Shown here: piece by piece, positions 3,475 to 20,578 of the stretch
Numbering within the stretch: the stretch's first letter is position 1
Layout: the number at the start of each line of letters is the position of its first letter
Assembly: GCA_017630395.1 (NCBI GenBank)
Contig: JAGBVI010000028.1
Span: forward strand, 1 to 58,032
Source: Paludibacteraceae bacterium
GTDB lineage: Bacteria; Bacteroidota; Bacteroidia; Bacteroidales; Paludibacteraceae
Reading direction: 5' to 3'
DNA length: 58,032 bases
The notes under the pieces: generated by a model
Told to the model about the DNA's origin: nothing
The model's input: only the letters and a program-made list of their open reading frames with translations
Database searches by the model: none
Translations under genes and position numbers: made by a program

Positions 3475-3630
3475 GAGGGGGTACAAACTCAAGAGAGGAG
3501 ATATTTGTTGCATCAATATTTCGAGAGAGGCTTTTGGGGAGTAGGCAAAATATAAGTATCCGACTCATCAGATTGTATTTTGCACCGAGAATGCTTTAAA
3601 AACTATTTCGTTCAAAAGCCATTACACTTT

Positions 3631-4400: not shown

Positions 4401-4428
4401 TGATGATAATACAAAAAATAGTTTAGAA

Positions 4429-5535
4429 ATGAGTAAAGTTACGATAACAGTTACCTCTCCACTGCTTCCGGATTTAGATGAGTTTCATTCCTTATTGAAA
4501 GAAATTTGGAATAGTAAATGGATAACCAATAATGGTAGTTTTCATAAACGCTTAGAGGCTGAACTGGCTTCATATCTAAAGGTGCCATTCGTTAGTTTGT
4601 TTACGAATGGTACTTTGCCATTGATAACAGCGTTGCAGGCTTTGAGGATAACTGGAGAAGTGATAACAACTCCTTATAGTTTTGTGGCAACTACACATGC
4701 TTTGTGGTGGAACGGGATTAAACCGGTTTTTGTTGACATAGATTTGCAGACAGGTAATATAGATCCAGATAAGATTGAGGCGGCTATTACTCCTAAAACA
4801 ACGGCCATAATGCCGGTGCATGTGTATGGAAAACCTTGTGATACAAAGAGGATTCAAGAGATAGCAAATAAATATGGATTAAAGGTGATTTACGATGCTG
4901 CTCATGCTTTTGGAGTGGAGGTAAATGGAGAGAGTGTTTTGAACGCTGGAGATATGTCCACATTGAGTTTCCACGCTACTAAAGTTTATAATACGATAGA
5001 AGGTGGAGCATTGGTGATGCATGATGAAGAGACAAAAAAACGGATTGACTATTTAAAGAACTTTGGTTTTGCCGGAGAGACAGAGGTGGTGGCTCCCGGT
5101 ATTAATAGCAAGATGGATGAGATGCGCGCCGCATACGGATTGCTAAATCTTCGTCAGGTGGATGCTGCTATTGAGTCTCGTCATCAGGTGGCGATTAAGT
5201 ATAGAGAGGGTCTGCGGGATGTTGATGGAATTTCTTTTATGGAGGATATGCCGGGGGTGAAGCATAATTATAGTTATTTCCCAATATTTGTTGATGCAGA
5301 AAAATATGGTATGACTCGCGATGAATTGTATTTTAAAATGAAAGAAGCCAAAGTATTAGGTCGTCGTTATTTTTATCCTTTGATTAGTGAGTTTGCTACT
5401 TATTGCGGATTACCAAGTTCGTCAAGAGATAACTTGCCTAATGCTCACAAAATGGCAGATAGTGTAATTTGTTTGCCAATGCATCATGAATTGAGCCGAG
5501 AAGATATAGAAAGAATACTTGATAGTATAATTTGA
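4429..5535 (+). CDS. DegT/DnrJ/EryC1-type sugar aminotransferase
   Basis: A PLP-dependent aminotransferase of nucleotide-sugar metabolism. The PLP-binding lysine is expected at Lys185 in FHATKVYNT. A glycine-rich FTNGT motif near residue 58 and DAAHAFG near 157 are typical. Length 368 with ATG 4429, which matches the family; the frame opens at TTG 4381, but that start would overlap the flippase remnant. With rfbB in the same operon, the natural substrate would be dTDP-4-keto-6-deoxyglucose. The product would then be a dTDP-4-amino-4,6-dideoxyhexose, as made by VioA or FdtB-type enzymes. Which of these it resembles most cannot be settled by eye. Confidence 0.85.
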   Translation: MSKVTITVTSPLLPDLDEFHSLLKEIWNSKWITNNGSFHKRLEAELASYLKVPFVSLFTNGTLPLITALQALRITGEVITTPYSFVATTHALWWNGIKPVFVDIDLQTGNIDPDKIEAAITPKTTAIMPVHVYGKPCDTKRIQEIANKYGLKVIYDAAHAFGVEVNGESVLNAGDMSTLSFHATKVYNTIEGGALVMHDEETKKRIDYLKNFGFAGETEVVAPGINSKMDEMRAAYGLLNLRQVDAAIESRHQVAIKYREGLRDVDGISFMEDMPGVKHNYSYFPIFVDAEKYGMTRDELYFKMKEAKVLGRRYFYPLISEFATYCGLPSSSRDNLPNAHKMADSVICLPMHHELSREDIERILDSII

Positions 5536-5547
5536 TTATAAATTGAA

Positions 5548-6429
5548 ATGAAAGAAACTCGAGATTTTTTGAAGAATGTAGGCTTGCCTGTAGGTGATCT
5601 ATATACTTTACCAACATCAGAAAAGAGATTCCCCGATGGTGGCCAATATCGTTTTGAAGTACCAGGGATACAAGGTCCAGGTTCTATGAAAGCGTTATTG
5701 GAGCAGTTGGATGAATATGGTATTCAAATACATAGGGTTACACAAACAAAAGGGATTATGTTTTTGACCGATGATGAAATATTGAAAATGGTGGAATATG
5801 CTCAAAGATGGAATGTTGAATTGGTTTTAGCTTGTGGACCACGAGCTACCAACGATACGAGTGCTTCTGTGAAAACGGAAGAAGGACAGCGAATGGGGTA
5901 TCGTTTAAGAGGTCAAGAACAAGTTGTTCGTGGAATAGAAGAGATCCGAAGAGGCGTTCGTTTAGGTGTAAGAGGTTTTCTGGTATATGACGAAGGGTTG
6001 TTGTTTGTTTTGAATGAAGCTCGTAAAAAAGGATTTATCCCATCTGATTGTCATTTTAAAATTTCTGCCCATTCAGGACATGGTAATCCTTGTTCAGCAA
6101 AAGTTTTAGAGATGCTAGGTGCGAATTCTATTAATCCTGTGAGGGATATCCAGTTACAAATGCTTTCGTCTATGCGTGCAGCTGTAGATATTCCAATTGA
6201 TATTCATACTGAAAATCCAAAATCCTCAGGTGGATTTATTCGCCATTATGAGGTTCCTGAGTTTATTCGTGTAGCATCTCCTGTATATCTAAAAACAGGA
6301 GGGTCTGTTGCAGCTAATCATAGTTATGATACTACGGAAAAAGAAGCTAAGCAACGGGCAAAGCAAATATTGTTGGTGAAAAGAATGATCGATAGCTATT
6401 ATCCAGAAGCTATTGTTTCTCCCAAGTAA
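5548..6429 (+). CDS. U32-peptidase-like TIM-barrel protein
   Basis: A soluble 293-residue protein that reads as a single alpha/beta barrel: repeated hydrophobic strands such as VELVLACGP, GFLVYDEG, HFKISAHSGHGNP and IPIDIHTENP. I believe it belongs to the group often annotated as U32-like peptidases, but it lacks a motif I can tie to catalysis. It keeps several His, Asp and Glu at strand ends that could bind metal or substrate. It starts 12 bases after the aminotransferase and ends 2 bases before the ATP-grasp ligase, so the three are tightly coupled. A lyase, aldolase or isomerase role on a small acid is as plausible as proteolysis. Confidence 0.5.
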   Translation: MKETRDFLKNVGLPVGDLYTLPTSEKRFPDGGQYRFEVPGIQGPGSMKALLEQLDEYGIQIHRVTQTKGIMFLTDDEILKMVEYAQRWNVELVLACGPRATNDTSASVKTEEGQRMGYRLRGQEQVVRGIEEIRRGVRLGVRGFLVYDEGLLFVLNEARKKGFIPSDCHFKISAHSGHGNPCSAKVLEMLGANSINPVRDIQLQMLSSMRAAVDIPIDIHTENPKSSGGFIRHYEVPEFIRVASPVYLKTGGSVAANHSYDTTEKEAKQRAKQILLVKRMIDSYYPEAIVSPK

Positions 6430-6431
6430 GT

Positions 6432-7676
6432 ATGATTATGACGGAAAGGAAGGTTGCTATTGTTTTGGGAGGAACTAGTCCTCATATAGAGTTGATTCGG
6501 CAGTTGCACGAACGTAATTTTTTTGTTGTATTAGTAGATTATTTATCAAATCCTCCTGCAAAACAGTATGCAGATGTTCATATTCAAGAAAGTACGTTAG
6601 ATTGTGAGGCTGTATTAAATGTAGCTATAGAATTTAATGCGAGTTTGGTTATCAGTGCATGTGTTGATCAGGCGAATATTACGGCATGTTATGTGGCAGA
6701 AAAGTTGAATTTACCTCGACCATATTCATATGAATTGGCTAACAACATAACAAATAAAGGTTATATGAAGGAGGTTATGGTAGCCAACAATATTCCAACG
6801 ACGCGATACGTATTTTTGGATAAGGATGAAAATTTGACAAATTTTGGATTGCGATTTCCTGTGATGGTAAAACCTGCAGATAGTTGTGCGGCTTCAGGAG
6901 TGAAGAAAGCAAATAATTTTAATGAATTGTCAGTATTTTTGAATGATGCAAAAAAAATTAGTCGTACAGGTCGAACAGTTGTTGAAGAGTTTTTTTCGGG
7001 TGTAGAAGTCAGTGTTTATGCATTTATAAAGGATAGAATAGCTAATATTTTGATGATTTCAGAAAGAATTTCTATAATTGAAGGTGAAAATCAGGTATTA
7101 AAATGTTATGCTACTATCACACCTCCTAATATATCAGAAGTGGCCTTAGCAAAAATACAAGAGAGTACTACTTGTATTGCTAACGTATTCAATTTGGACA
7201 ATACGCCTCTTCATGTACAATATATCATTGATGGAGATGAGATTAGTGTGATAGAATTTGCGCCTAGAGTCGGAGGAGGTATAAGTTATAAAAATATTAA
7301 AAGCAACACAGGTTTTGATATTATTTCATCAACCATAGATTCGTATTTGCAGAAGTCAGTTGACGTTCGGTATCAGTGTTCAAATCGCTATTTTTCAGTA
7401 AACTTGGTCTATGGCGTCCCTTCTACATTTCATCGTATGACAGGTATTGAAGACTTATTAAACGAAGGTATTGTAGATAGTATTCATTATCATAAGACTC
7501 CAGGTAGTGTAATCACAGACGATCGAGCTAGTGGTGGTCGTATAGCTGCTATTCTGATATCAGGTGATACCCGTCAGGATGTTCTAGATAAAGTAAAGAT
7601 TACTTTTGAAAGAATCAATGCTTTCGATTCAAATGGAAATCAAATACTGCGTAAGGATTTATATATAAAGCAATAA
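6432..7676 (+). CDS. ATP-grasp ligase (carboxylate-amine type)
   Basis: The order is a preATP-grasp Rossmann segment (VAIVLGGTSPHIELIRQL), a central ATP-binding segment (FPVMVKPADSCAASGVKK, VVEEFFSGVEVSVY), and a C-terminal Mg-binding segment (VIEFAPRVGGG). This fits ATP-grasp enzymes that activate a carboxylate as acyl-phosphate and join it to an amine. It has 414 residues. It could join an organic or amino acid to an amino sugar or to another acid. The start may be ATG 6432 or ATG 6438. It is cotranscribed between the U32-like gene and the citrate-lyase-like gene, which supports a role in making or attaching an acid. Confidence 0.82.
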   Translation: MIMTERKVAIVLGGTSPHIELIRQLHERNFFVVLVDYLSNPPAKQYADVHIQESTLDCEAVLNVAIEFNASLVISACVDQANITACYVAEKLNLPRPYSYELANNITNKGYMKEVMVANNIPTTRYVFLDKDENLTNFGLRFPVMVKPADSCAASGVKKANNFNELSVFLNDAKKISRTGRTVVEEFFSGVEVSVYAFIKDRIANILMISERISIIEGENQVLKCYATITPPNISEVALAKIQESTTCIANVFNLDNTPLHVQYIIDGDEISVIEFAPRVGGGISYKNIKSNTGFDIISSTIDSYLQKSVDVRYQCSNRYFSVNLVYGVPSTFHRMTGIEDLLNEGIVDSIHYHKTPGSVITDDRASGGRIAAILISGDTRQDVLDKVKITFERINAFDSNGNQILRKDLYIKQ

Positions 7677-7680
7677 AAGA

Positions 7681-8817
7681 ATGAAACATCATCAATATAA
7701 CCCCACATATCAATTTGTAAAAGCGCCCAGTGATTTCAATAAATATACAGACCGAGAGCTACTTCAATATTGTTTGGGAGCTACTATGTATATGCCTGGC
7801 ACAAAAGATTTTGCACAGGCAGTTATTGACAAGAAGTATCCTGGATTGACTTCAATGGTCATGTGTTTTGAAGATGCTTGTAGGGAAGAGGACGTACCGG
7901 CAGCAGAAATCAATTGTATTCATGTGCTTGAAACATTGGCTGATAATGTAGAAAACGGTACTCTCAAGTACGAAGATATTCCATTGATATTTTTCCGTGT
8001 ACGTAGTGTAGAGCAGTTCAAGCATTTTGCATCGATGCTCCAACCACGTCACATCAAGTACTTGTGTGGTTTCAACTTTCCAAAATTCAATAGCATAACT
8101 GCGGCTCCTTATATGGAGCATTTAGTGGAGTTGAATGCTAAATTTGGGGAAATCATCTATGGTATGCCTATCATTGAAGATTCACGTGTGGCTTATAAGG
8201 AAACGCGACTTCTTGAATTGATGGCAATCAAAAATGTTTGTGATTGTCATAAGAAATTAGTTTTGAACGTTCGTGTAGGTGGTACAGATTTTTCTAGCTG
8301 TTTTGGTGTACGTAGAGGCATTAATTACACGATTTATGATATAATGACCGTAAGTAACTGTTTGATGGATATCTTGAATGTGTTTACTCGAAATAATGAT
8401 TATACAGTAAGCGGACCGGTTTGGGAATATTTCAAGGCTAACAAGCGAATGAAGAATATGAATGAACTTCCAAAGGTTGATTTGCAGCAAACATTGTTAA
8501 AACGAAAGGCTGTTGTGAATGATGCTGTGGATGGATTGATGCGTGAGTTGGTACTTGATCAGGCAAATGGCTTTATGGGTAAAACATGCATTCACCCAAC
8601 ACATTTGAATTACATCAATGGTATGCTTGCTGTTACTAAAGATGAATACGATGATGCCTATCAAATCATGAACACATCGGGTGGTGTGATTCAAGGAAGT
8701 AAGGGTATGAATGAGATTGGTCCGCATAAGGCTTGGGCACAACGTATCATGATGCGTTCTGAAGCATATGGTGTTATTGAACATGATGGTAGTTATATAG
8801 AATTGTTTGGAGTATAA
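7681..8817 (+). CDS. HpcH/HpaI aldolase / citrate lyase beta-like protein
   Basis: A TIM-barrel C-C lyase family protein of 378 residues. Recognisable parts are MPGTKDF near residue 38, MCFEDACREEDV near 61 and GKTCIHPTHLNYIN near 300, which correspond to the CitE pattern. Family members cleave or form bonds next to pyruvate, oxaloacetate or acyl-CoA units, using Mg. It lies four bases after an ATP-grasp gene. A similar lyase plus ATP-grasp pairing is known from ter-type gene clusters, but no other ter genes are here. Its substrate in this locus is unknown; a C4 or C3 hydroxyacid fits the neighbours. Confidence 0.75.
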   Translation: MKHHQYNPTYQFVKAPSDFNKYTDRELLQYCLGATMYMPGTKDFAQAVIDKKYPGLTSMVMCFEDACREEDVPAAEINCIHVLETLADNVENGTLKYEDIPLIFFRVRSVEQFKHFASMLQPRHIKYLCGFNFPKFNSITAAPYMEHLVELNAKFGEIIYGMPIIEDSRVAYKETRLLELMAIKNVCDCHKKLVLNVRVGGTDFSSCFGVRRGINYTIYDIMTVSNCLMDILNVFTRNNDYTVSGPVWEYFKANKRMKNMNELPKVDLQQTLLKRKAVVNDAVDGLMRELVLDQANGFMGKTCIHPTHLNYINGMLAVTKDEYDDAYQIMNTSGGVIQGSKGMNEIGPHKAWAQRIMMRSEAYGVIEHDGSYIELFGV

Positions 8818-8822
8818 GCAGC

Positions 8823-9809
8823 ATGAAGCAATATAATTATTGTTTGGACTTCATCAAAGGTATAGCTTGTATCTTTGTTGTTTTTATGCATTGCGAGTTT
8901 CCAGGTATCATGGGCACTGTTGTGCAAGCTATCAGTCGTTTTTGTGTACCTCTCTTTTTTATGGTGTCTGGTTACTTCTGCTATAAATCAACAAATTATC
9001 AAGATAACGGCTCATGGCTCTTTAATAAGAAGGTCATACATATTTTAAAAATAACAATAAATGCTTCTTTGTTTTATCTTGTATTCGTTATAATCCAATC
9101 CCTTTTGTTTGACAACATCAATTGGCATATAACAATTGGAAGAATTTGCAAATTCTTATTATTCAATACACCTCCAATTATCGCAGGTCAATATTGGTTT
9201 TTGTTCGCTTTGCTTTATGTGTATATTTTATATGCAATTATAGAACGGTTTGGATTGCTGAAATATGCTTACCCTATTGCTGCATTCATGTTTTTAGTAT
9301 ATATAATCATGGCACAAGGAATGCATTTAGTTGGGATATCTGTTCCAAACATGTTTTATCGTAACTTTTTAGTCGAAGGCTTTGCTTTTTTCATGTTAGG
9401 ACATTGGATTCACAAGAATCAATCCACTTTACGTATAAGCAACCATACATTACTTTTTACGATTGTCATAACAACATTATTATGTTTGTTAGAACGTTAT
9501 TTGTTAGGAAGAGATTTTGGAGTCAATATCGTTACTATCCCTCAAGTATTCTGTCTTTTTCTTTATGCAGTAAACAATCCACAACAACATAAAAGTGTTA
9601 TCCAAGAAGTTGGTAAACGATATTCGATGTATGTCTATATTTTACATCCATTTGTATGGCATGTATTAGAATACATATATGAACACTACCATTTAGAAAC
9701 CAATACTCCGGCGTTATATGCAATGCCTATATTAGTGTTGTTTATTTCTTTATTATTATCCCATATTGTTTATCTGGGTAATGCTAAACTATTAACTCAA
9801 CGTAAATAG
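8823..9809 (+). CDS. Membrane O-acyltransferase (acyltransferase family 3)
   Basis: An integral inner-membrane protein of 328 residues with about ten hydrophobic spans. The opening LDFIKGIACIFVVFMHCEFPG and following FCVPLFFMVSGYFCYKS carry the conserved Arg/His-type signature region of family 3 acyltransferases such as those that O-acetylate surface polysaccharides. It probably acetylates the repeat unit at the membrane. It starts six bases after the lyase gene and ends four bases before the dehydrogenase gene. Confidence 0.88.
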   Translation: MKQYNYCLDFIKGIACIFVVFMHCEFPGIMGTVVQAISRFCVPLFFMVSGYFCYKSTNYQDNGSWLFNKKVIHILKITINASLFYLVFVIIQSLLFDNINWHITIGRICKFLLFNTPPIIAGQYWFLFALLYVYILYAIIERFGLLKYAYPIAAFMFLVYIIMAQGMHLVGISVPNMFYRNFLVEGFAFFMLGHWIHKNQSTLRISNHTLLFTIVITTLLCLLERYLLGRDFGVNIVTIPQVFCLFLYAVNNPQQHKSVIQEVGKRYSMYVYILHPFVWHVLEYIYEHYHLETNTPALYAMPILVLFISLLLSHIVYLGNAKLLTQRK

Positions 9810-9813
9810 ATTT

Positions 9814-10785
9814 ATGCCCAAAATACTTCATACTTATCGTTATACAGGTCGTCCTTGGGAAATACTTCAGTCTGTAGTTCCCGAAGGATATACCATCAAG
9901 ACACTTGATACTCCTACTTACGAACAACTGGTTAAAGAGGCAGAAGATGCTGATTATTTCTTGGTAAGCGGACGCTTGCCTATCGACAAGGGAGTATTGG
10001 ATGCAGCCAAGAAGCTGAAGATGATACAACGTACCGGTGTCGGAACTGAGATGCTTGATAAGGAAGAAATCAAGCAAAGGGGCATTCCTGTATATGTTAA
10101 TGCAGGCGTTAACGCACGCAGTGTAGCCGAACATACCCTTGCATTGATGTTATCTTGCTTAAAACGAATTCCCGCTATTGACAAACAAGTACGCCAAGGT
10201 ATATGGAAAAAACAGGAAACAGGCACTTCTTGTCACGAACTTTACGGCAAAACGGTAGGTTTAGTAGGTATGGGAGCCATTGGCAGACAAGTCGCCGAAT
10301 ATTTGCATGTTTTTGGTGCAAAAATCCTTTATACGGATCTTTGCCAATTATCATCAGAACAAGAACAGAAACTATATGCGACATATATATCTTCATTGGA
10401 AGAGATGTTACCATTAGTAGATATTCTTTCTTTTCATTGTCCATTAACTAATGATAACAAGGAGATTCTCAATGAAAGAACGTTATCTATGATGAAGTCA
10501 GATGCAATCATTGTCAATACAGCACGAGGAAAACTTATTGAAGAAGTTGCTCTTTATAAAGCATTGAAAAATGGAAAAGTTCGAGCTGCGGGTTTGGACG
10601 TTCATTATGAAGAACCAATATCTATAAACAATCACCTTTTGTCAACTTCAGACAATGTGATTCTTACCCCCCATATTGGAGGATTATCTTTTGAAACATT
10701 TCATGCTATGATGAAAGATGCTGTAGAGAATATTGTTTTATATGAAGAAGGCAATACGGAAATGCTCCAAAATAAGTTATTGTAA
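9814..10785 (+). CDS. D-isomer-specific 2-hydroxyacid dehydrogenase
   Basis: NAD-dependent interconversion of a 2-oxoacid and a D-2-hydroxyacid. The Rossmann motif GLVGMGAIGRQVAE begins near residue 150. The catalytic Arg is in VNTARG, the Glu in HYEEP and the His in LTPHIGG. Length 323 fits phosphoglycerate/glyoxylate-dehydrogenase relatives without an ACT domain. In a capsule operon this is unusual. Its simplest role is to supply a hydroxyacid such as lactate, glycerate, malate or a relative for attachment. The exact substrate cannot be read from the sequence. Confidence 0.85.
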   Translation: MPKILHTYRYTGRPWEILQSVVPEGYTIKTLDTPTYEQLVKEAEDADYFLVSGRLPIDKGVLDAAKKLKMIQRTGVGTEMLDKEEIKQRGIPVYVNAGVNARSVAEHTLALMLSCLKRIPAIDKQVRQGIWKKQETGTSCHELYGKTVGLVGMGAIGRQVAEYLHVFGAKILYTDLCQLSSEQEQKLYATYISSLEEMLPLVDILSFHCPLTNDNKEILNERTLSMMKSDAIIVNTARGKLIEEVALYKALKNGKVRAAGLDVHYEEPISINNHLLSTSDNVILTPHIGGLSFETFHAMMKDAVENIVLYEEGNTEMLQNKLL

Positions 10786-10809
10786 TTTAAACTTTTATTA
10801 TTCTAAGTT

Positions 10810-11922
10810 ATGGCTATATTGCTTACCTTTAAGAAAAAAATTTCTTCTATAATATTTCAAATTTGCCCAGTTTTTAAAGTGAGGCGATTCATTCAAAAGA
10901 TGCAGGTCGGGCATGTTGAAATGTACGGAGGATATGATGCATATTCTCACATAATGGAGAATTGTGAATACTTTCTTAAAAAAGAAAAATTGGAAAATAA
11001 GTCATATATGGATGAAGTTTTTTATGATATAGTTTATTGCTATTTAAAGTATGGAACTAATGCTAATGAATATTTTTGCTATAATTTTCCAAAACGAACG
11101 TCTAAAGAACGAGCAACTTATTTACCAAGAAAACGGAAAGACGATTTGCTTATAAAAAATATGGGAAAGAATTGGAATATTTATTTTGATCAAATAAAGG
11201 ATAAGTATTGTTTTTACAAAATAGCGAAGGACTTTTTCTGTAGAGATGCTTGCGAAATAGCAGCTCCTTCAGATTATGAATCTTTTATTTTTTTTATGAA
11301 TAAGCATAAGAAGGTGATAGCCAAGCCTTCAAGAGGAGGATGTGGTAGTGGTATTATTATTCTTGATTTACTAAATTTTGAGAACAATACTGAAAAGGCG
11401 TTTAATCACCTATTGTCTTTCAATACGCCTTTTATATTGGAAGAGATTGTAGAGCAAGATACTCGTATTGCTCAGTGGAATGCCTCTAGCTTAAATACAC
11501 TAAGAATACCATCTTTTAGGACTGCAAAAGGTAATCGTATTATTTATCCTTCCATTAGAATTGGACGGTCTGGCAGTATAGTAGATAATGCGGGTAGTGG
11601 AGGTACTTTTGCCGCAATTGACCCTCAAACAGGTAAAATCATAACAAAAGGATATGATAAACGTGGTAATAGCTTTGATAAACATCCTGATTCACAAATA
11701 ACTTATATAGGAATGCAAATACCTAAATGGGATGAATTGTTGGTGTTTGTGAGAAAAATGCATGAATCTATGGCCAAAGAGCATAAATACCTTGCATTTG
11801 ATTTGGCATTATCGACTAAGGGCTGGGTAGTTATAGAAGCTAATTGGGGTGAGATGTCTATGCCTCAAATTGAATTTGGGAAGGGTCTATATAAAGAATT
11901 TGAAGATTGCTTGTTTTCTTGA
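10810..11922 (+). CDS. Sugar-transfer-associated ATP-grasp protein
   Basis: A second ATP-grasp fold, of the type linked to polysaccharide loci (ATPgrasp_ST). The N-terminal 120 residues are specific to this type (YGGYDAYSHIM and TYLPRKRKDDLL-like region). The ATP-binding part contains VIAKPSRGGCGSGI near residue 174 and ILEEIVEQD near 213. The C-terminal part carries LAFDLALSTKGWVVIEANWG. It has 370 residues, with no signal peptide or membrane span. Family members are thought to ligate substituents during polysaccharide assembly. Together with the other ATP-grasp gene it points to amide or ester decoration. Confidence 0.8.
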   Translation: MAILLTFKKKISSIIFQICPVFKVRRFIQKMQVGHVEMYGGYDAYSHIMENCEYFLKKEKLENKSYMDEVFYDIVYCYLKYGTNANEYFCYNFPKRTSKERATYLPRKRKDDLLIKNMGKNWNIYFDQIKDKYCFYKIAKDFFCRDACEIAAPSDYESFIFFMNKHKKVIAKPSRGGCGSGIIILDLLNFENNTEKAFNHLLSFNTPFILEEIVEQDTRIAQWNASSLNTLRIPSFRTAKGNRIIYPSIRIGRSGSIVDNAGSGGTFAAIDPQTGKIITKGYDKRGNSFDKHPDSQITYIGMQIPKWDELLVFVRKMHESMAKEHKYLAFDLALSTKGWVVIEANWGEMSMPQIEFGKGLYKEFEDCLFS

Positions 11923-11951
11923 TTGATAATATGTAATTTGTTGTTGGTCCT

Positions 11952-13031
11952 ATGATAAAGATAGGTTTTGTCGGAGATATAAATCCTGGAGGTACTCTTG
12001 TTTACGGATGGGAATTAGGTGAAAATCTGAGTTCTCTTTTTGATGGTTTTGACATTCGGGTAGGTACATTGGAGTCTGCAATAGGAGATGGGAATACACT
12101 TTGTCATATAAAAATAGCCAACAAGCATATGGGAAATATTATATATTCTCCTGATGAAAGTATAAGTGTATTAAAGAAATTGAATATAAACGCTGTTTCT
12201 TTAGCAAATAATCATGCTTGTGATTGTGATTTGGAGGGGTTGGGTCATACAATTGAGGTATTAGAAGCTAACCAAATAGCTTATTTTGGAGCTGGTAGAA
12301 ATGAAGAAGAGGCATCAAGACCTGCCACACTAATTGTTAGGGGGTGTAAAGTTGGATTATTGGGATATTGTTATCCCGATACTAGTGCTAGATATGTTCC
12401 TAGTGAAAATGCTGGAGGTTTGAACTTTTATAGTAAAGAAAAAGTATTGGATGATATTAGAAGATATAAGGATACGTATGATTATCTTTTTATTCTTCCG
12501 CATTGGGGGGTCCAGCATAAAAAACGCCCTTTATATGTTGATATAGAAGCTGCAAAATTATTTATAAAGGAAGGTGCAACAGCTGTTATTGGCAGTCATA
12601 CTCATATACTTCAGCCTACCTTTAGTTATAAAAATCGCTTTATTGCGATGAGTTTAGGTAATTTCTTATTTCCAGACAGATATATAGTCCCTCCTCGAGT
12701 AACTTATTATCCTTCTATTTTGGAACGAAGTAATAAAAATATTCCTATAACGTTGTCTTATCCTATTGTTAATAAATTAACTTATAAACAAGTGCCTAAA
12801 TATGGTCGGTATGGAGCTGTTTGTTGTGTTAATATTGATGGGAATAAGCTTTCTTACCAAATAGTACATACCTATTTGGATTCCATTAATAAGTTGGAAC
12901 GAACTAAAGTTTCATTAAGGTATCGTGTGTTGTATCAATATCTTGCTTTTATATCAAAAAACACTATTCTTTCTAGAATAGAAGGAAAATGCTATCGAAT
13001 GCTATGTAGATTCTCATTTTTTAGCCGCTAA
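11952..13031 (+). CDS. CapA/PgsA-family metallophosphatase-like protein
   Basis: Family proteins are needed for poly-gamma-glutamate or amino-acid-decorated capsules and have a calcineurin-like fold. The sequence starts MIKIGFVGDINPGG. It contains VGTLESAIG, SLANNHACDC, LPHWGVQ and IGSHTHILQP, the metal-ligand motifs of this fold in the expected order. It has 359 residues and no signal peptide, so it is probably cytoplasmic or peripheral, unlike anchored PgsA. It follows an ATP-grasp gene, a common pairing for amide-bond chemistry. Confidence 0.85.
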   Translation: MIKIGFVGDINPGGTLVYGWELGENLSSLFDGFDIRVGTLESAIGDGNTLCHIKIANKHMGNIIYSPDESISVLKKLNINAVSLANNHACDCDLEGLGHTIEVLEANQIAYFGAGRNEEEASRPATLIVRGCKVGLLGYCYPDTSARYVPSENAGGLNFYSKEKVLDDIRRYKDTYDYLFILPHWGVQHKKRPLYVDIEAAKLFIKEGATAVIGSHTHILQPTFSYKNRFIAMSLGNFLFPDRYIVPPRVTYYPSILERSNKNIPITLSYPIVNKLTYKQVPKYGRYGAVCCVNIDGNKLSYQIVHTYLDSINKLERTKVSLRYRVLYQYLAFISKNTILSRIEGKCYRMLCRFSFFSR

Positions 13032-13033
13032 TT

Positions 13034-14509
13034 ATGAAGGATTGTAAACAATTGAAACATAAGGCAGTAACGGGTGCTTTTTGGACTTCTATTCAGAGAT
13101 TTATGAGTATATTTATACAATTTATCTCAAATATAGTTTTGGCACGCTTGTTAACCCCTAATGATTATGGCTGTATAGGTATGTTGGCTATATTTATGCT
13201 TTTGTCTTCTACAATTATTGATGGAGGATTTGGTTCGGCTTTGATACAAAAGAAAAGACCTACACAAGAAGATTATTCTACGATATTCTTTTGGAATTTA
13301 GGTTTGTCAATTGTTATATACGTCCTCTTATATTTATCAGCTCCTTTTGTTGCACAATTTTATCATATCGAGTTATTATGTCCTGTATTACGTGTTCAGG
13401 GAATTGCATTGATAATCAATGCGTTTCAACTAATTCAAACAAATCAGTTAAATAAGCAATTTAAGTTCAAGAAAATCTCAATAGTAACATTGTTTTCTTC
13501 TGTAGTTTCTTTGATGGTTACTATAGTGATGGCATATAAAGGCTTTGGGGTTTGGTCATTGGTAGCTCAAAATCTTTTAATGTCTTCTATACCAACGGTT
13601 ATTTATTGGTTGACTAATAAATGGAAGCCTTTATTAGTCTTTTCTATTCAATCCTTTAAGGAATTGTTTAGCTTTGGATTTTATATGTTTTTGTCTACGT
13701 TACTTTCAACTTTTGTAAACAATATTCAAGGATTGCTTATTGGTCGTTTCTATGACGCTGCTCAAATGGGATTTTATTCTAAAGCTCATAATACAGAGAA
13801 ATTAGCATCTACAAGTATTTCTCAAATACTGAGTCAAGTGTCTTATCCTTTATATGCAGAATTGCAAGATGATAAAAATAGTCTCATCAAAACTATCAAG
13901 AAACTGACTTTGTCTGTTTCTTATTTAACATTTCCAATGATGCTTTTATTGATACTTTTGGCAAAACCAATTTTTATACTCTTATTTTCTGATAAATGGC
14001 TTCCTGCGGTACCTTTTTTTCAAATTCTTTGTATTGCAGGTTTGGCGATTTGTTTGCAATCTGTTAATTCTCAATCTATAGCCGCGATAGGAAAAAGTAA
14101 AGTGATGTTTATTTGGTCTTTTATTAAACAAGGTATAGGTTTATTATTTATGATAGTTGGTTTGTTTTTTGGGGGAATGAAAGGATTGCTAATAGGAATG
14201 GTAATGAAATCATGGCTAATTTATATTATAAATGCTTCACTAGTTTCATATTATATAGGTTATAAGTTATGGAGACAGTTATTAGATATAGTACCGGTTT
14301 TACTACTTTCTACCGTAGCTTTTGCAATTTCTTATATAGGGGGGGGGCTAATCCAGATTTCATTATATGTTGATGCATGTATCATGTTTCTCGTTTTTGT
14401 GACAGTTTATGTGACAAGTTCTGTTTTTTTTAAGATGGAAGCTTATATACTTTTTTATAATTTAGTCAATCCTCATATAAGGAGAATTAAGGATAAATTA
14501 ATAAAATGA
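13034..14509 (+). CDS. wzx: Wzx-type polysaccharide flippase
   Basis: Moves the lipid-linked repeat unit across the inner membrane. It has 491 residues and 12 to 14 hydrophobic spans. The N-terminal segment has a typical signature (GAFWTSIQRFMSIFIQFI, ARLLTPNDYG). The C-terminal YYIGYKLWRQLLDIVP region matches the decayed fragment at 4133-4400, so this is the working flippase and the other is the relic. It starts two bases after the CapA-like gene and stops one base before the MmgE/PrpD gene. Base composition is strongly AT-rich compared with the gene that follows. Confidence 0.93.
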   Translation: MKDCKQLKHKAVTGAFWTSIQRFMSIFIQFISNIVLARLLTPNDYGCIGMLAIFMLLSSTIIDGGFGSALIQKKRPTQEDYSTIFFWNLGLSIVIYVLLYLSAPFVAQFYHIELLCPVLRVQGIALIINAFQLIQTNQLNKQFKFKKISIVTLFSSVVSLMVTIVMAYKGFGVWSLVAQNLLMSSIPTVIYWLTNKWKPLLVFSIQSFKELFSFGFYMFLSTLLSTFVNNIQGLLIGRFYDAAQMGFYSKAHNTEKLASTSISQILSQVSYPLYAELQDDKNSLIKTIKKLTLSVSYLTFPMMLLLILLAKPIFILLFSDKWLPAVPFFQILCIAGLAICLQSVNSQSIAAIGKSKVMFIWSFIKQGIGLLFMIVGLFFGGMKGLLIGMVMKSWLIYIINASLVSYYIGYKLWRQLLDIVPVLLLSTVAFAISYIGGGLIQISLYVDACIMFLVFVTVYVTSSVFFKMEAYILFYNLVNPHIRRIKDKLIK

Positions 14510-14510
14510 A

Positions 14511-15857
14511 ATGACAGATCGGTTCATTCAAGATATACGTTTAATTACAAAGGAATCTATTCTTTCGGAAGTTTATCTCCAAGCAAGAAAATGTTTGATA
14601 GACTATTTGGCAGTAACGATTTCTGGTGCATGTTCTTTTTCGGGCAAGGCTCTTGATTATATTCAGACAATGGGGCATGGTAATGAGAACGCTACTGTCA
14701 TTGGACTGAATTGTAAAACTGATATGCAAACAGCATCTCTCATCAATGGAATGAATGCTCATGTTCTCGAATTGGATGACGGTCATCGTCAGGGAGCTTT
14801 GCATGTAGGAAGTACTATCTTTTCAGCCCTATTGGCAATAGCAGAGAAAGAAAATCTTTCTAGTGAAGATTTTTTATACGGAGCCATCATTGGTTATGAA
14901 GTAACTGTCCGTTTGGCTTGTGCCATCCAACCAGGGAATAAACTTCGTGGTTATCATGCTACAGGTACCTGCGGTACAGTAGGGGCAACCATGGGAATTG
15001 CGGCAGCACTTGGTTTTGATGAGGAGCAAATGAAATCGGCTTTGTCGGCTGCTGTGACTTGTGCGGCCGGTGTATTGGAAATGCAGGAGGATAATGCTGA
15101 CTATAAACCACTCAATGTAGGACGTGCAGCTATGGATGCGGTAGCTGCTGCATATCTGGGTAAAGCTCGTTTTGCTCCTCCATTTGATGCAATAGGAGGC
15201 AAACGTGGATTTTTGAAGGTGATGACAGATGAACCGAAAACAGAATATCTGACGTATTTTGATTCGACCAGCCCATTAGCCATCACGCAGATTTATATGA
15301 AGACGTATGCAGCATGCCGACATACACATCCTACTATTGAAGCGGCGTTGACACTCCGGGAAAAGTATGATATCTATCCTTCGGATATAACTTCGATTGA
15401 GGTAGAAGCATACAAGTTGGCGGTTGCCGGACATGACCATACGGACATCTTGGGCATCAGTTCTGCCAAGATGAGTTTGCCATTCAGCGTAGCTTTGGCC
15501 TTATGCACAGGCAGTGCAGGTATGGAGGCTTATAACGGAACTAATATGACAGATAAAACTATACTCTCGTTGGCAAAAAGGGTGACGGTAACAGAAAATG
15601 AAGAATTATCATCTTTAGTACCTCGGAAACGTGCTTCCATTCTTCATTTAACCATGGGCGATGGAACCAAACTAACCTGTCGGGTAGATTATCCGAAAGG
15701 AGAGCCTGAAAATCCATTGACGGATGAGGAAATTGAAGAAAAGTTCGTATCTTTAGTTACAGCCAGTGGTTTTACTAAGGAAAGATGTAAAGATATTATT
15801 CACACCATCCAACAACCGTCATTTGAATTACCTACCCTTTTAGATAAATTGAAATAA
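14511..15857 (+). CDS. MmgE/PrpD family protein
   Basis: The family includes 2-methylcitrate dehydratase and cis-aconitate decarboxylase, so it handles di- and tricarboxylic acids. Typical stretches are LDDGHRQGALHVGSTIF near residue 85, YHATGTCGTVGATMG near 147 and CRHTHPTIEA near 268. The 448-residue length fits. It is out of place in a capsule locus. With the adjacent split fumarase/tartrate dehydratase it forms an acid-converting trio. Base composition is visibly richer in GC than the flippase or polymerase genes (32 of 60 bases at 15121-15180), suggesting a different origin. Confidence 0.85.
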   Translation: MTDRFIQDIRLITKESILSEVYLQARKCLIDYLAVTISGACSFSGKALDYIQTMGHGNENATVIGLNCKTDMQTASLINGMNAHVLELDDGHRQGALHVGSTIFSALLAIAEKENLSSEDFLYGAIIGYEVTVRLACAIQPGNKLRGYHATGTCGTVGATMGIAAALGFDEEQMKSALSAAVTCAAGVLEMQEDNADYKPLNVGRAAMDAVAAAYLGKARFAPPFDAIGGKRGFLKVMTDEPKTEYLTYFDSTSPLAITQIYMKTYAACRHTHPTIEAALTLREKYDIYPSDITSIEVEAYKLAVAGHDHTDILGISSAKMSLPFSVALALCTGSAGMEAYNGTNMTDKTILSLAKRVTVTENEELSSLVPRKRASILHLTMGDGTKLTCRVDYPKGEPENPLTDEEIEEKFVSLVTASGFTKERCKDIIHTIQQPSFELPTLLDKLK

Positions 15858-15858
15858 T

Positions 15859-16362
15859 ATGATATACTTGAAAACTCCCATTCAAGAAACAGACATCAGC
15901 CAACTGCAAGTGGGTGATGTCGTCTCTATTTCCGGATATATTTATACGGGGAGAGATGCTGTTCTTCCTAAAATAGTGAAACTGATAGAACAAGGTAAAT
16001 TGGAAGAATATGGAATAGATTTGAAGGGGTCTATCATCTTTCATACGGCAGTGAGTCCAGCGGGTGTAGGTCCTACTTCTAGTAATAAATTTGAGATAGA
16101 AAGTAGTTTTCCTGCGTTGTCGAAGGCAGGAGTTAAGCTTCATTTAGGGAAGGGTGCTTTATCCTCCTATACCATTCAATCGTTGAATGAGAATAATTCT
16201 GTTTTTGCGGTAATTCCTCCCGTGACAGCTTTGTTGGAAAGTTTGACCTTAGAAAGAGAAGTTGTTGCTTTCCCTGAGTTAGGAATGGAAGCCTTGCATC
16301 GTATCAAAGTAGAAAATTATCAAGCTATTATAGCTGTTGCACATGGTAAAAGCATATATTGA
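15859..16362 (+). CDS. Class I fumarase / L-tartrate dehydratase, beta-type subunit
   Basis: Corresponds to the C-terminal swivelling domain of iron-sulfur fumarases, as in TtdB. It has 167 residues. LKTPIQETDISQLQVGDVV and GYIYTGRDAVLP cover the start, and SPAGVGPTSSNKFE near residue 66 is the substrate-binding loop. In most relatives the RDA motif is followed by Ala-His; here it is Val-Leu, a possible specificity change. It sits one base after mmgE/prpD and one base before the alpha subunit. The order beta then alpha is the reverse of the usual ttdA-ttdB order. Confidence 0.82.
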   Translation: MIYLKTPIQETDISQLQVGDVVSISGYIYTGRDAVLPKIVKLIEQGKLEEYGIDLKGSIIFHTAVSPAGVGPTSSNKFEIESSFPALSKAGVKLHLGKGALSSYTIQSLNENNSVFAVIPPVTALLESLTLEREVVAFPELGMEALHRIKVENYQAIIAVAHGKSIY

Positions 16363-16363
16363 A

Positions 16364-17212
16364 ATGAATTCTGATATAATCAATAAAGTAAAACAAACTT
16401 TGGTAAGGGCAGGATCTTCATTTCGAAAGGATCAAATTGAAGCTTATGAATTTGCTATTGCTAAAGAGATATGTAATAATGCGAAGTGGGCATTATCTCA
16501 GACGTTAGAAAATGCGAGAGTTGCATGTTCTAAATGTAGTCCCCTTTGTGACGATACAGGTATTCCTCATCTGTATTTAGAAGTAGGGCCAAATCAGGTA
16601 GTAACCGGACAACTTATTGAAGATATCCACGAAGGGGTTCGTCAAGGTTTGCGAGAACTACCTGGACGACCGATGGCTGTTAAAGGCAATGACATCCAGC
16701 GTATTGAACAATCAGATGGTCTTTATGAAGATGCAGCCGCTTTAGATGCGGCTCCTTTGATTGTCCGAAATATACAAGAAGACGAAATGCGTTTAACCGT
16801 TTTGATGTTGGGAGGAGGTCCGGCTATCCGCGGTATTACTCAGAGTATCTTTCATAAACATAGCATTCATGTAGTGGTAGATGAGATTGTAAAACGAGCA
16901 TCAGAAGGTGTGAAGAAATTAGGTTGCACACCGTGTACTTTGGCTATTGGAGTAGGTCGTTCTCAATATGAAGCAACTTCGATGATGATGGAAGCTATGG
17001 TGAAAGGTAATTATAGTATTCAATCTGAATTAGAAAAAGAAATAACTGCAAGAGTTAATGAGACAAATGTTGGTCCATTAGGATTGGGAGGAGGTACAAC
17101 TGTGTTAGCAACTTTTCTTAATGTTGGACCACAGAGAGCTAGTGGCGTTAGAATTGTGGCAATTCGTCCTTGTTGTTGTTTTGAACCAAGACGTGCAACT
17201 GTGTCGTTGTAA
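16364..17212 (+). CDS. Class I fumarase / L-tartrate dehydratase, alpha-type subunit
   Basis: The [4Fe-4S]-bearing catalytic half of a split class I hydro-lyase, as in TtdA. The three cluster cysteines are readable: one in PLCDDTGIP, one in LGCTPCTLAIGVG, and one in the run RPCCCFEPRR near the C-terminus. GLGGGTTVLATF corresponds to the family GLGGxTT motif. It has 282 residues from ATG 16364; the frame opens at TTG 16337 inside the beta gene. It would reversibly add water to fumarate or a relative (giving malate) or remove water from tartrate. Substrate is uncertain. Confidence 0.83.
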   Translation: MNSDIINKVKQTLVRAGSSFRKDQIEAYEFAIAKEICNNAKWALSQTLENARVACSKCSPLCDDTGIPHLYLEVGPNQVVTGQLIEDIHEGVRQGLRELPGRPMAVKGNDIQRIEQSDGLYEDAAALDAAPLIVRNIQEDEMRLTVLMLGGGPAIRGITQSIFHKHSIHVVVDEIVKRASEGVKKLGCTPCTLAIGVGRSQYEATSMMMEAMVKGNYSIQSELEKEITARVNETNVGPLGLGGGTTVLATFLNVGPQRASGVRIVAIRPCCCFEPRRATVSL

Positions 17213-17227
17213 ATTAAGTTTTGATAT

Positions 17228-18247
17228 ATGGAAATTTGTGATAATTCAATTAGTAATCCGTTAGTTTCAGTTCGATGTTTTACCTACAACCAATCTGCAT
17301 ACATTAAGGATGCACTGAATGGTTTTGTGATGCAACAAACTAACTTTCCCTTTGTAGTACTTGTTGTTGACGATGCATCTACAGATGGGGAGCAGGAGGT
17401 AATCCGTAAATTTATGACGGAGGAATTTGAATTGTCAGATGCTTCTGTTGCTTACGAAAAAGAGACTGAATTTGCGTATATTCAATATGCACAGCATAAA
17501 ACAAACAAGAATTGTTTTATGGTTGCGATGTTTTTGAAAGAAAATCATTATTCTCAAAAGAAAAAGAAATTTCCATATTTAGCAGAGTGGCGAGATGGAG
17601 TTAAATATGAGGCTATTTGTGAAGGCGATGACTACTGGATTGACCCTTTGAAACTACAAAAACAAGTAGATTTTTTGGAAGAGAATGATGAGTGTGGTTT
17701 GGTATATGGAAAAGCCAAAGAATATTTGCAAGCAAAAGGAATGTGTGGTTCTTTTATAGGAGGAAAGGCAACATCTTTTGAAGATATTTTTTTTAAAGGG
17801 AATCCTGTGCCGACTTTAACAGCTTGTTATAGAGTGAAAATTCTTAATGAATATCGTAAGAATATACAACTTCCTAATTTTGCAATGGGGGACCTTCCTA
17901 TGTGGCTATATATATCTAAGCATTATTCGATTCATTTTATTGATGAAGTACTTGGGGTTTACAGAGTATTGAAAAATTCAGCTTCTGGTAGAATAAGTTA
18001 CGATGCTAGATTACGTTTTATTCAATCATCTTTTGATGTAAGACGATTTTTTTGTGATTATTATAAATTACCATATATGAACTCTTTAGATGAGTTTAAA
18101 GCCAGAGTATATTATTTATCGGCAAAGGAATTTGGACAGATTGAAGATATGAGAAAGCATTATGTCTGCATAAAAAATAAATTGAGTATCAAGGAACGTG
18201 TTGTACATTATTTGTATATATTGGGTATTGTGGGGAATAAAGGATGA
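17228..18247 (+). CDS. Family 2 glycosyltransferase
   Basis: GT-A fold enzyme that adds a sugar to the growing lipid-linked unit on the cytoplasmic face. VSVRCFTYNQSAYIKDAL begins the nucleotide-binding domain. VLVVDDASTDGEQEVI holds the first aspartates. YEAICEGDDYWIDPLKLQ holds the metal-binding motif. It has 339 residues and no membrane span. Its stop overlaps the next start by four bases (ATGA), so translation is probably coupled. Confidence 0.9.
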   Translation: MEICDNSISNPLVSVRCFTYNQSAYIKDALNGFVMQQTNFPFVVLVVDDASTDGEQEVIRKFMTEEFELSDASVAYEKETEFAYIQYAQHKTNKNCFMVAMFLKENHYSQKKKKFPYLAEWRDGVKYEAICEGDDYWIDPLKLQKQVDFLEENDECGLVYGKAKEYLQAKGMCGSFIGGKATSFEDIFFKGNPVPTLTACYRVKILNEYRKNIQLPNFAMGDLPMWLYISKHYSIHFIDEVLGVYRVLKNSASGRISYDARLRFIQSSFDVRRFFCDYYKLPYMNSLDEFKARVYYLSAKEFGQIEDMRKHYVCIKNKLSIKERVVHYLYILGIVGNKG

Positions 18248-19449
18248 AATATACTAATGTTGGAGTGTTAAATTATTGTTTTGGATGCGGAGTTTGTTCA
18301 ATTTCGTGTCCGAAGAAAATTATTGAGTTAAAACTTAATGATAGGGGATTTTATACACCGAATATTACCAATCCTGATTTGTGTGTTGAGTGCGGATTAT
18401 GTACAGATAATTGTTCGTTTTTGAGCAAAGAACTCGCATCTCAGTCAACAGATATTAAAAGTTGGGGAGCATGGAGTTCTGATAATTTAGTTAGAAGAAA
18501 AGCATCTTCAGGAGGAGTCGGATTTGAAATCGCTTCTTTATTGATAGAAAAAGGATATAAAGTTTGTGGAGTAGAGTACAATATTGATAATCAGCGTCCA
18601 GAACATTATATAGCAACAAACAAAATAGAATTAATTAGAAGTATAGGGTCTAAATATCTTCAAAGTTATACGGTGAATGGTCTTTCTCAAATAAATAAGA
18701 CTGATAAATATTTAGTAACAGGAACTCCGTGTCAAATAGATAGTTTTAGAAGATATATAAAAAGGTTAAAGATAGAAGATAATTTTGTATTGATGGATTT
18801 CTTCTGCCATAGTGTGCCTAGTTACTTAGCATGGAAGCATTATATGAAATTGGTAGAAGAAAAAGTGGGAAAAATAACTTATGCTTCTTGGCGAAATAAA
18901 TTTACTGGTTGGCATGATTCTTGGGCTATTAGTATGGATGGTGTTAATACTAATGAACCCGTTAATTGGCATGATTCTTATAATTTGTTGATAAAGGGAA
19001 AAAAAGGATTTTATAACTCTCGTTTATCACAAGGTGATATTTTTTATAATCTTTTTTTGGGAGATTTTTGTTGTGGTCGCCAATGTGTCAAAAATTGTAA
19101 ATTTAAATATGACAAATCTTCTGCTGATATAAGAATTGGTGATGCTTGGGGACGTACTTATGAAAAAGATGACGTTGGTGTCTCTACGTTAATCTCTTTT
19201 ACTGAGAAAGGTAAGTTGATAGTTAATTCATTGAGAGAGAATAAGCGTTGTATTCTTGAAGAATTACCTTTTGAACAGATTGCAGAAGGGCAGATGAAAA
19301 AAAATGCAGGAGAAGCTTCTTTATCTTGGCTTGCATGGATGATGCTAAAGTCTGAATATTCTTTTTTCGAAGCTTCGTGGAAGTTTTTGGTGAGGGTAAA
19401 TTCAATAGTAGGAAAAATTGTGAAAAGATTAAATGTAATCAGATTTTGA
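18244..19449 (+). CDS. FrhB/F420-dehydrogenase beta-like iron-sulfur protein
   Basis: Two 4Fe-4S ferredoxin motifs open the protein (Cys12, 15, 18, 22 and Cys47, 50, 53, 57). They are followed by the domain found in coenzyme F420 hydrogenase beta subunits, with ASSGGVGFEIA near residue 85 and VTGTPCQID near 158. It has 401 residues. Such proteins are common next to polysaccharide pyruvyltransferases in Bacteroidota capsule loci, as here (next gene starts two bases later). Their job there is not established; a redox step on a sugar or an acid substituent is a guess. Confidence 0.85.
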   Translation: MKYTNVGVLNYCFGCGVCSISCPKKIIELKLNDRGFYTPNITNPDLCVECGLCTDNCSFLSKELASQSTDIKSWGAWSSDNLVRRKASSGGVGFEIASLLIEKGYKVCGVEYNIDNQRPEHYIATNKIELIRSIGSKYLQSYTVNGLSQINKTDKYLVTGTPCQIDSFRRYIKRLKIEDNFVLMDFFCHSVPSYLAWKHYMKLVEEKVGKITYASWRNKFTGWHDSWAISMDGVNTNEPVNWHDSYNLLIKGKKGFYNSRLSQGDIFYNLFLGDFCCGRQCVKNCKFKYDKSSADIRIGDAWGRTYEKDDVGVSTLISFTEKGKLIVNSLRENKRCILEELPFEQIAEGQMKKNAGEASLSWLAWMMLKSEYSFFEASWKFLVRVNSIVGKIVKRLNVIRF

Positions 19450-19450
19450 G

Positions 19451-20575: not shown

Positions 20576-20578
20576 TTT

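Follow-up and report, generated by a model that had tools for sequence, protein, structure and literature searches.

In a Paludibacteraceae bacterium (Bacteroidales; GenBank assembly GCA_017630395.1), a gene cassette embedded in a capsule locus appears to serve for making a non-sugar (poly)carboxylic acid as a capsule decoration, along a dedicated pathway in which a shared 2-oxo acid would be made first, then finished by branch-specific enzymes and joined to an amine by an ATP-grasp ligase. We hold this reading with slightly better than even confidence. The cassette occupies positions 5548-17212 of the window, by which we mean the whole 58,032-nucleotide stretch analyzed, one entire contig (JAGBVI010000028.1) of a 3.57 Mb genome. 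Sugar genes (rmlB, a nucleotide-sugar dehydrogenase gene, and a DegT gene) lie on one side of it and glycosyltransferase genes on the other, and with a NusG-like regulator (384-923, which we take to be of the UpxY type), a flippase, and a polymerase on the same strand, the surroundings are those of a Wzx/Wzy capsule locus of the Bacteroidales type. A first-pass annotation, made from the sequence letters, had described the enzyme families of this span as tightly spaced genes on one strand, and profile searches recovered every family named, in a single plus-strand run with gaps of 1 to 29 bases. Two genes had been passed over in that list, encoding an acyltransferase (Acyl_transf_3, 8823-9809) and the Wzx-type flippase (13034-14509). 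The genes of the locus are, in order:

384-923, + strand: NusG-like regulator of the capsule locus (Pfam NusG), also present 5' of the cassette in two related genomes, G299 and G297
969-2102, + strand: RmlB, dTDP-glucose 4,6-dehydratase (TIGR01181, 463.6 bits, cut-off 365)
2131-3474, + strand: nucleotide-sugar dehydrogenase (TIGR03026, 309.8 bits, cut-off 189.8)
4381-5535, + strand: DegT sugar aminotransferase, probably for 4-amination (Pfam DegT; nearest NCBIfam model DesI, 298 bits, below its cut-off of 650)
5548-6429, + strand: U32-like TIM-barrel enzyme, cassette core and putative common module (76-88% identity in two congeners; modeled as a TIM barrel)
6432-7676, + strand: ATP-grasp ligase, candidate acid-amine ligase (ATP-grasp_4, PF13535)
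7681-8817, + strand: C-C_Bond_Lyase, putative branch-specific module (PF15617, 375 bits)
8823-9809, + strand: acyltransferase (Acyl_transf_3, PF01757, 113.6 bits)
9814-10785, + strand: D-2-hydroxyacid dehydrogenase, putative branch-specific finishing enzyme (2-Hacid_dh, PF02826, 196.6 bits)
10810-11922, + strand: ATPgrasp_ST ligase, accessory (PF14397, 132.4 bits; differs from locus to locus)
11952-13031, + strand: CapA-like protein, accessory (PGA_cap, PF09587, 159.2 bits)
13034-14509, + strand: Wzx-type flippase (PF13440, 315.6 bits)
14511-15857, + strand: MmgE/PrpD protein (PrpD), putative branch-specific module (PF03972, 176 bits; PF19305, 132 bits)
15859-16362, + strand: class I fumarase/tartrate-dehydratase beta subunit (FumB), putative common module (Fumerase_C, PF05683, 82.1 bits)
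16364-17212 (open reading frame from TTG at 16337), + strand: class I fumarase/tartrate-dehydratase alpha subunit (FumA), putative common module (Fumerase, PF05681, 171.5 bits)
17228-23084, + strand: glycosyltransferase, FrhB-like protein, pyruvyl transferase, Wzy, and GT4 genes of the capsule locus (Pfam)

Read from its TTG, the FumA frame overlaps FumB by 26 bases. All three aligned FumA proteins share the Met at its codon 10, where the G299 reading frame begins, so the ATG at 16364 is the likelier start.

The genes that define the cassette travel together in relatives. Among 61 related genomes, the U32-like protein was found in three (G000, G297, and G299), as were PrpD, the PF15617 lyase, and FumA (>590 bits); elsewhere, the lyase gave a partial 21-bit match in G330 and FumA gave weak matches of 19 to 48 bits in 14 other genomes, and the window PrpD is the sole PF03972 match in its own genome. 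Because four diagnostic genes fall in the same three of 61 genomes, their joint presence goes beyond chance. The cassettes of G299 and G297 likewise lie in capsule loci, 3' of a NusG-like gene, rmlB, the dehydrogenase gene, and DegT. The G299 cassette resembles that of the window; the G297 cassette holds two other ATP-grasps, an aldo-keto reductase (AKR), and a short thiamine-diphosphate enzyme, and the window-type dehydrogenase was not found in its locus.

A wider scan, with one genome per species, returned 317 stretches with relatives of the barrel, of which the best 80, making up 79 loci, were kept (73-88% identity); by record title, 47 loci belong to Bacteroidota, 29 to Bacillota, and one to Spirochaetota, and two are unplaced. 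Genes were counted by tblastn in the 63 loci with at least 6 kb on either side, giving PrpD in 55, FumB in 53, FumA in 51, the lyase in 58, DegT in 41, and one type of ATP-grasp or another in 57 (none in L087, L090, L071, L098, L105, and L107), with part of the shortfall explained by the 10 kb limit on the flanks. Thus, when the genomes of 12 of the 22 loci without FumA were searched, 10 held a cassette-type copy (55-67% identity, one fragmentary), and all seven loci with a copy just beyond the flank showed PrpD, FumB, and FumA once extended. The acid-type enzymes and ligases therefore recur as a unit, often in polysaccharide loci, as would be expected from the acid-synthesis and ligation function that the first-pass annotation had proposed for them; that interpretation is partly supported, the C3-C5 size of the acid and its link to the 4-amino-6-deoxy sugar being predictions. 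It had also counted all of the genes as one cassette. The core does recur, but the CapA-like gene (whose PGA_cap sequence, used as query, matched in 9 of 79 loci) and the ATPgrasp_ST gene vary between loci and are found in arrays of their own (L033), and so look like a separate module.

Two further arrangements were seen in these loci. In five extended loci (L136, L137, L138, L139, and L142, extensions of L078, L067, L066, L047, and L029), a second acyl-making set, named by sequence likeness as a hexapeptide acyltransferase, an AMP-ligase, a KAS III-like protein, and a FabG-like short-chain dehydrogenase/reductase, is partly interleaved with the cassette, suggesting that two different acyl groups may be placed on one glycan. 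In L027 (6649-10090), two ATP-grasps flank a 330-amino-acid protein without a Pfam or NCBIfam match, which was matched in 17 of 79 loci.

The genes we call finishing enzymes, which by family would act on a 2-oxo acid or its aldehyde, are nearly exclusive of one another. Of 63 loci, 29 have a decarboxylase without a dehydrogenase, 28 a D- or L-type dehydrogenase without a decarboxylase, one both, and five neither (Fisher p 1.2e-11). The sole locus with both, L075, also has a second PrpD, and in two of the five with neither (L043 and L047) a dehydrogenase was present beyond the flank after extension. The decarboxylase and AKR occur together in 30 of the 63 loci and the AKR alone in one, while an L-type dehydrogenase is present in 7 of 79. 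The window dehydrogenase (9814-10785) has both Pfam domains, and its translation contains TARGK, YEEP, and TPHIGG, presumably the motifs of the catalytic Arg, Glu, and His. Only one decarboxylase was scored, the thiamine enzyme of G297, which reached 387 bits against the TIGR03297 model for phosphonopyruvate decarboxylase (cut-off 312.5).

This choice of finishing enzyme is inherited with some cassette genes and hardly with others. On short maximum-likelihood trees of the 48 loci, including the window, that have all five genes (21 reducing and 27 decarboxylating), the finishing branch changed 13 times on each of the U32-like, FumA, and FumB trees, where 200 shuffles gave a mean of 15.8-15.9 and a lowest value of 11, as against two changes on the PrpD tree and one on the lyase tree. 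With all available rows (70, 55, 60, and 63), there were 15 changes for the U32-like protein, 15 for FumA, two for PrpD, and one for the lyase. Since reducing and decarboxylating branches are both found in Bacteroidota and in Bacillota, phylum alone cannot explain the pattern, and near-identical barrels occur in opposite branches, for example, in L054 and L061. The PrpD tree contains long branches that join one another. These trees give good support to the division into modules, and because co-inheritance with the finishing choice differs between the two groups, the barrel and FumAB would act on molecules common to all branches, before the fork, and PrpD and the lyase on branch-specific ones. 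We rejected the lyase as the first committed step, since its tree tracks the finishing branch, which the barrel and FumAB trees scarcely reflect, and some loci lack a lyase. PrpD positions 87 and 148 were likewise rejected as a branch marker, as they do not cleanly separate the branches. The alternative finishing enzymes, the two co-inherited modules, and the catabolic-looking relatives described below all go beyond the first-pass annotation.

From gene content, co-occurrence, the near-exclusive finishing enzymes, module co-inheritance, and conserved residues at catalytic positions, all established at the level of sequence, we infer which reactions occur and in what sequence, what the acid looks like, which amine accepts it, and in which direction recruitment ran. 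The U32-like barrel and FumA/FumB would act first, giving a single 2-oxo acid, shared by all branches and built on a four-carbon dicarboxylate core. In the window strain, the D-2-hydroxyacid dehydrogenase would then reduce the 2-oxo group, as an L-type dehydrogenase would in other strains; in others still, a phosphonopyruvate-decarboxylase-like enzyme would remove CO2 and the AKR would yield an alcohol. The matching PrpD and PF15617 lyase may then work on the branch product, for example, setting its stereochemistry or dehydrating it, and making or breaking a C-C bond. Finally, ahead of export by Wzx, the ATP-grasp ligase would couple the acid to an amine, for which the 4-amino sugar from RmlB and DegT is the simplest candidate. 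The acceptor may not be the same in every locus, given that 41 of the 63 showed DegT. A degradation pathway for a related acid is the probable source of the module.

At E 0.001, the barrel (5548-6429) by itself matches nothing in Pfam or NCBIfam; the Pfam Peptidase_U32 cut-off is not reached, and that model gives no match at all to the window sequence. Its label in the first-pass annotation, a U32-like TIM barrel, is nevertheless fair, as Peptidase_U32 gives weak matches to 27 of the 47 members of the barrel alignment (best E 0.0053), AlphaFold2 folds the protein into a TIM barrel (predicted local distance difference test score 83), and Foldseek placed a U32 protein of solved structure, 5d88, fourth amid many other TIM barrels. 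Aldolases and isocitrate-lyase-type enzymes, including 2-methylisocitrate lyase, were the other neighbors, with template-modeling scores of about 0.5 as for 5d88, and the modeled fold is that of a generic TIM barrel. Thirty positions, chosen as invariant in an earlier alignment and many of them basic, are unchanged in 80 of 80 sequences. The invariant K171 and K249 lie on strands 5 and 8 of the model; class I aldolases carry their Schiff-base lysine elsewhere. Their placement makes a Schiff-base aldolase mechanism through these lysines doubtful, and the Foldseek matches are generic only.

Distant barrels on plasmids of Thermomicrobium, Streptomyces, Enterobacter, and Nonomuraea were set aside, as they lie beside enolase-superfamily and transporter genes (the first two) or in other clusters; all but the Streptomyces one served as the outgroup of the barrel tree. 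In L109 (3445-9936, Thermomicrobium) and L110 (11548-18900, Streptomyces), the U32-like proteins have an enolase-superfamily enzyme and ABC transporter genes of the sugar type as neighbors, which hints that they take part in breaking down acid sugars. In L111 (10898-23135, Enterobacter plasmid), the distant U32-like protein is clustered with a dehydrogenase, an aminotransferase, two iron-containing redox enzymes, and a nucleotidyltransferase, in what looks like a natural-product cluster.

Other relatives carry cassette genes beside those for citrate lyase or malic enzyme. L087 holds a barrel, PrpD, a second barrel, FumAB, and both dehydrogenase types; neither an ATP-grasp nor sugar genes were detected in it, and its neighbors encode CitC, CitE, CitF, CitX, an AAT-family protein (an amidohydrolase-type fold), a metallo-beta-lactamase-fold protein, and a peptide-type binding protein; its close relative L090 has the same genes and no ATP-grasp. 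We also sampled 391 genomes from the class to which Sarcina sp. DSM 11001 (L096) belongs. Of these, 13 matched, 11 of them (L096 itself included) at full length or nearly so and the other two over short, weak stretches. Four of the 11 loci are of the biosynthetic gene type (L096, L126, L127, and L129); BLAST showed no ATP-grasp in L126 or the short L129. Citrate lyase genes are present in three others (CitE and CitF in L130 and L131, CitX in the short L128), PrpD not being seen in L130. Another three (L132, L133, and L134) possess a more distant set that includes malic enzyme, to which L132 adds an L-type dehydrogenase and a tripartite tricarboxylate transporter. The last, L135, has the barrel without other cassette genes. 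On the barrel tree, the malic-enzyme set branches below the rest with support of 93, under a weak rooting (33), and support is only 74 for the branch of which the citrate-lyase set makes up one side. Both kinds of relative, with citrate lyase and with malic enzyme, look catabolic, and these sequences suggest a catabolic origin of the cassette.

As for what the acid might be, the conserved residues of the three remaining enzymes can be set beside the chemistry of their families. The FumA residues C71, C197, C200, C280, and C281 are present in 58 of 58 sequences, and we assume that they include the ligands of an Fe-S cluster; all eight NCBIfam matches of FumB fall below their cut-offs. A housekeeping fumarase was rejected as the source of FumA, since class I enzymes of the phylum share about 21-33% identity with it over parts, as against 64-65% for the G297 and G299 cassette copies. 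The gene that had been called a CitE/HpcH-like lyase does encode a C-C lyase, but its family is PF15617 (cut-off 28.4), with a CitE match of just 22.7 bits. Its acidic and basic residues E64, D65, R106, R108, E166, D203, and H305 are kept in 71 of 71 sequences and are presumably like the active-site residues of CitE. In PrpD, H84, H98, H149, and K264 are kept in 64 of 64 sequences and K199 in 63, while position 87 is E in 40 and D in 24. The best NCBIfam match of PrpD scores 41 bits (cut-off 950), and a Bacillus subtilis homologue (7bra, 121 bits) and iminodisuccinate epimerase (2hp3, 120 bits) match it alike. Its H84, E87, H98, H149, K199, and K264 lie near the published spacing, a match by spacing and not by alignment, and characterized MmgE/PrpD substrates share a 1,4-dicarboxylate whose binding residues are kept (PMC12290011). 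Class I fumarases catalyze fumarase, (2S,3S)-tartrate dehydratase, and mesaconase reactions (PMC4682846). These substrates and reactions together argue that the acid probably has a substituted four-carbon diacid core.

One alternative, which we consider unlikely, is that the cassette handles ordinary small acids, with FumAB a plain fumarase, the dehydrogenase turning oxaloacetate into D- or L-malate, the decarboxylase and AKR giving 3-hydroxypropionate, and the barrel and PrpD performing side steps. Oxaloacetate is the carboxylate analogue of phosphonopyruvate, and malic enzyme adjoins FumAB of the distant set in L132-L134; moreover, fumarate is used well by class I fumarases (PMC4682846). However, malate and oxaloacetate are already in the cell, yet the barrel, PrpD, and lyase are retained with these genes, and PrpD and the lyase track the branch and so seem to handle branch-specific molecules.

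About equally improbable, in our view, is a methyl-branched C5 acid (citramalate, mesaconate, 3-methylmalate, or 3-methyloxaloacetate), for which FumAB would be a mesaconase and the lyase or citrate lyase would act on citramalate. Class I fumarases hydrate mesaconate to (S)-citramalate, and the clostridial mesaconase is an Fe-dependent heterodimer followed by citramalate lyase (PMC4682846). CitE and CitF occur where the PF15617 lyase does not (L087, L090, L130, and L131), and methylsuccinate isomerase belongs to the PrpD family (PMC12290011). Such an acid would leave the universally kept barrel without an obvious job, however, and PF15617 is just distantly CitE-like. Two known systems come close here. 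In the clostridial methylaspartate pathway of glutamate fermentation (PMC4682846), a two-subunit class I hydro-lyase goes with citrate/citramalate-lyase genes, as it does in L087, L090, L130, and L131. Unlike that pathway, these four loci have a U32-like barrel, and L087, L090, and L131 also have PrpD (glutamate mutase and methylaspartase were not searched for); the window set looks biosynthetic. The itaconate/methylsuccinate cluster, which handles branched dicarboxylates, pairs an MmgE/PrpD isomerase with a citramalyl-CoA lyase, and so resembles the window in having MmgE/PrpD beside a C-C lyase (PMC12290011); the window differs in its capsule context, in its lyase family, and in having no CoA transferase or acyl-CoA dehydrogenase among the cassette genes.

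That the cassette is a phosphonate or sulfonate pathway we regard as very unlikely. The phosphonate reading was prompted by the G297 decarboxylase scoring above the TIGR03297 cut-off, and it was mostly dropped after searches for phosphoenolpyruvate (PEP) mutase, which was found above cut-off in just 1 of 12 cassette genomes (11 of them decarboxylase-type, G299 the other). Ten of the 11 without it are decarboxylase-type, and none was above cut-off in the window's own genome. The exception, the genome of L092 (G362), has two copies, C27 and C51, both with a decarboxylase-like gene nearby; the C27 copy sits inside L092, 3.7 kb past FumA. The decarboxylase-like genes near the two PEP mutases are 42 and 49% identical to the G297 enzyme and the L092 cassette copy 47%, so sequence fails to tell the cassette decarboxylase from the PEP mutase neighbors. 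The L092 mutase, however, has a decarboxylase-like gene of its own. For a sulfonate, the one L-type dehydrogenase scored is nearest to L-sulfolactate dehydrogenase, below the cut-off. Sulfolactate degradation uses two dehydrogenases and a tripartite transporter, which recalls the D- and L-type hydroxyacid dehydrogenases of L087 and the TctCBA transporter of L132, but the lyases differ, and a dicarboxylate is likelier here. In addition, decarboxylation of a phosphonate or sulfonate would leave no carboxylate for the ATP-grasp ligase. Thus, the likeness to phosphonate tailoring by PEP mutase and phosphonopyruvate decarboxylase comes down to a same-family enzyme that seems to decarboxylate a 2-oxo acid in other strains; the general lack of PEP mutase in cassette genomes argues against phosphonopyruvate, and the substrate is likely another 3-acidic pyruvate. 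The L092 region itself (17222-20468), with PEP mutase and a phosphonopyruvate-decarboxylase-like gene just beyond the cassette, may carry a phosphonate as well.

Lastly, capsule loci do gather foreign genes and the flanking genes vary between loci, but a chance cluster of housekeeping or salvage genes hitch-hiking in a variable locus has a negligible probability, contradicted as it is by co-occurrence in the same genomes of relatives and by conserved content across many loci.

Several observations weigh against the dedicated acid pathway that we prefer. The 79 loci were picked by similarity to the window barrel, two of them (L031 and L072) repeat G299 and G297, and the records are mostly metagenome bins, so that single phylum names may err. 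Two loci come from records of named strains, Prevotella sp. khp7 (L057, dehydrogenase type) and Mediterraneibacter massiliensis (L086, decarboxylase type). The trees come from short searches without bootstrap, and when the D- and L-type dehydrogenases are split to give three states, the PrpD and lyase trees show five changes each, with D and L loci unseparated. FumA was not found in the whole genomes of L068 and L094, the lyase is absent from 5 of 63 loci, DegT was not found in 22, four decarboxylase-type loci have no detected ATP-grasp, and glycosyltransferase, Wzx, Wzy, or WcaJ genes were seen in only 44 of the 63, a minimum because few seeds were used. The PEP mutase inside L092 points the same way. 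The enzyme substrates and the acid on the polysaccharide are predictions, and class I fumarases can also work simply as fumarases (PMC4682846), so FumAB may only supply fumarate or malate. In L094, the barrel, PrpD, a D-dehydrogenase, and ATP-grasps are present, with FumAB and the PF15617 lyase not within reach.

No description of the cassette was found in searches of open-access papers, in keeping with the first-pass annotation, to which no described capsule pathway with exactly this set was known. Nearest in context is the Campylobacter jejuni capsule, where the C-terminal domain of Cj1438 is an ATP-grasp-fold enzyme forming an amide with a capsule sugar (PMC11800379). There, glucuronate is amidated, the sugar giving the carboxylate and the amine being added, whereas in the window the small molecule is likely the acid and has a long dedicated pathway.

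Other features of the window lie around the cassette. An FrhB/FdhB-like protein followed by a polysaccharide pyruvyl transferase (18244-20575) could provide a second non-sugar decoration in the same locus. Two capsule-locus reading frames (23154-24461 and 3580-4092) have no Pfam match. The locus ends with a radical SAM/SPASM protein (27097-28167), copies of which, 52-53% identical, lie 3' of the cassette in both congeners, and directly after it, on the opposite strand, is a GH9-family glycoside hydrolase with a Por-type secretion tail (29619-31397).

A bolder version of the acid pathway, less likely than not in our view, can be offered tentatively. The U32-like family would be a new class of C-C bond enzymes. 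Together with FumAB, it would combine, say, pyruvate with fumarate or oxaloacetate into a branched 2-oxo tricarboxylic acid that has yet to be described. This core would be exchanged among gut bacteria of two or more phyla, separately from the matched finishing blocks that either reduce it or decarboxylate it to give an alcohol. Capsules would in this way be diversified through acid chemistry and not through sugars. Other gut Clostridia would use an operon with an amidase-like protein and citrate lyase to strip and ferment the same acid.

The diversity of capsules among gut bacteria is usually judged by their glycosyltransferases. In the loci described here, a pathway resembling central metabolism has apparently been recruited to make a non-sugar substituent, with the final chemistry swapped as a block (the finishing enzymes together with the matching PrpD and lyase) and the core traveling separately. 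This defines an uncharacterized enzyme family and would offer a code readable from genomes, reduced versus decarboxylated, for a decoration as yet unseen. It also points to possible cross-feeding, in which makers carry the ligase and possible consumers carry the amidase-like protein and citrate lyase.

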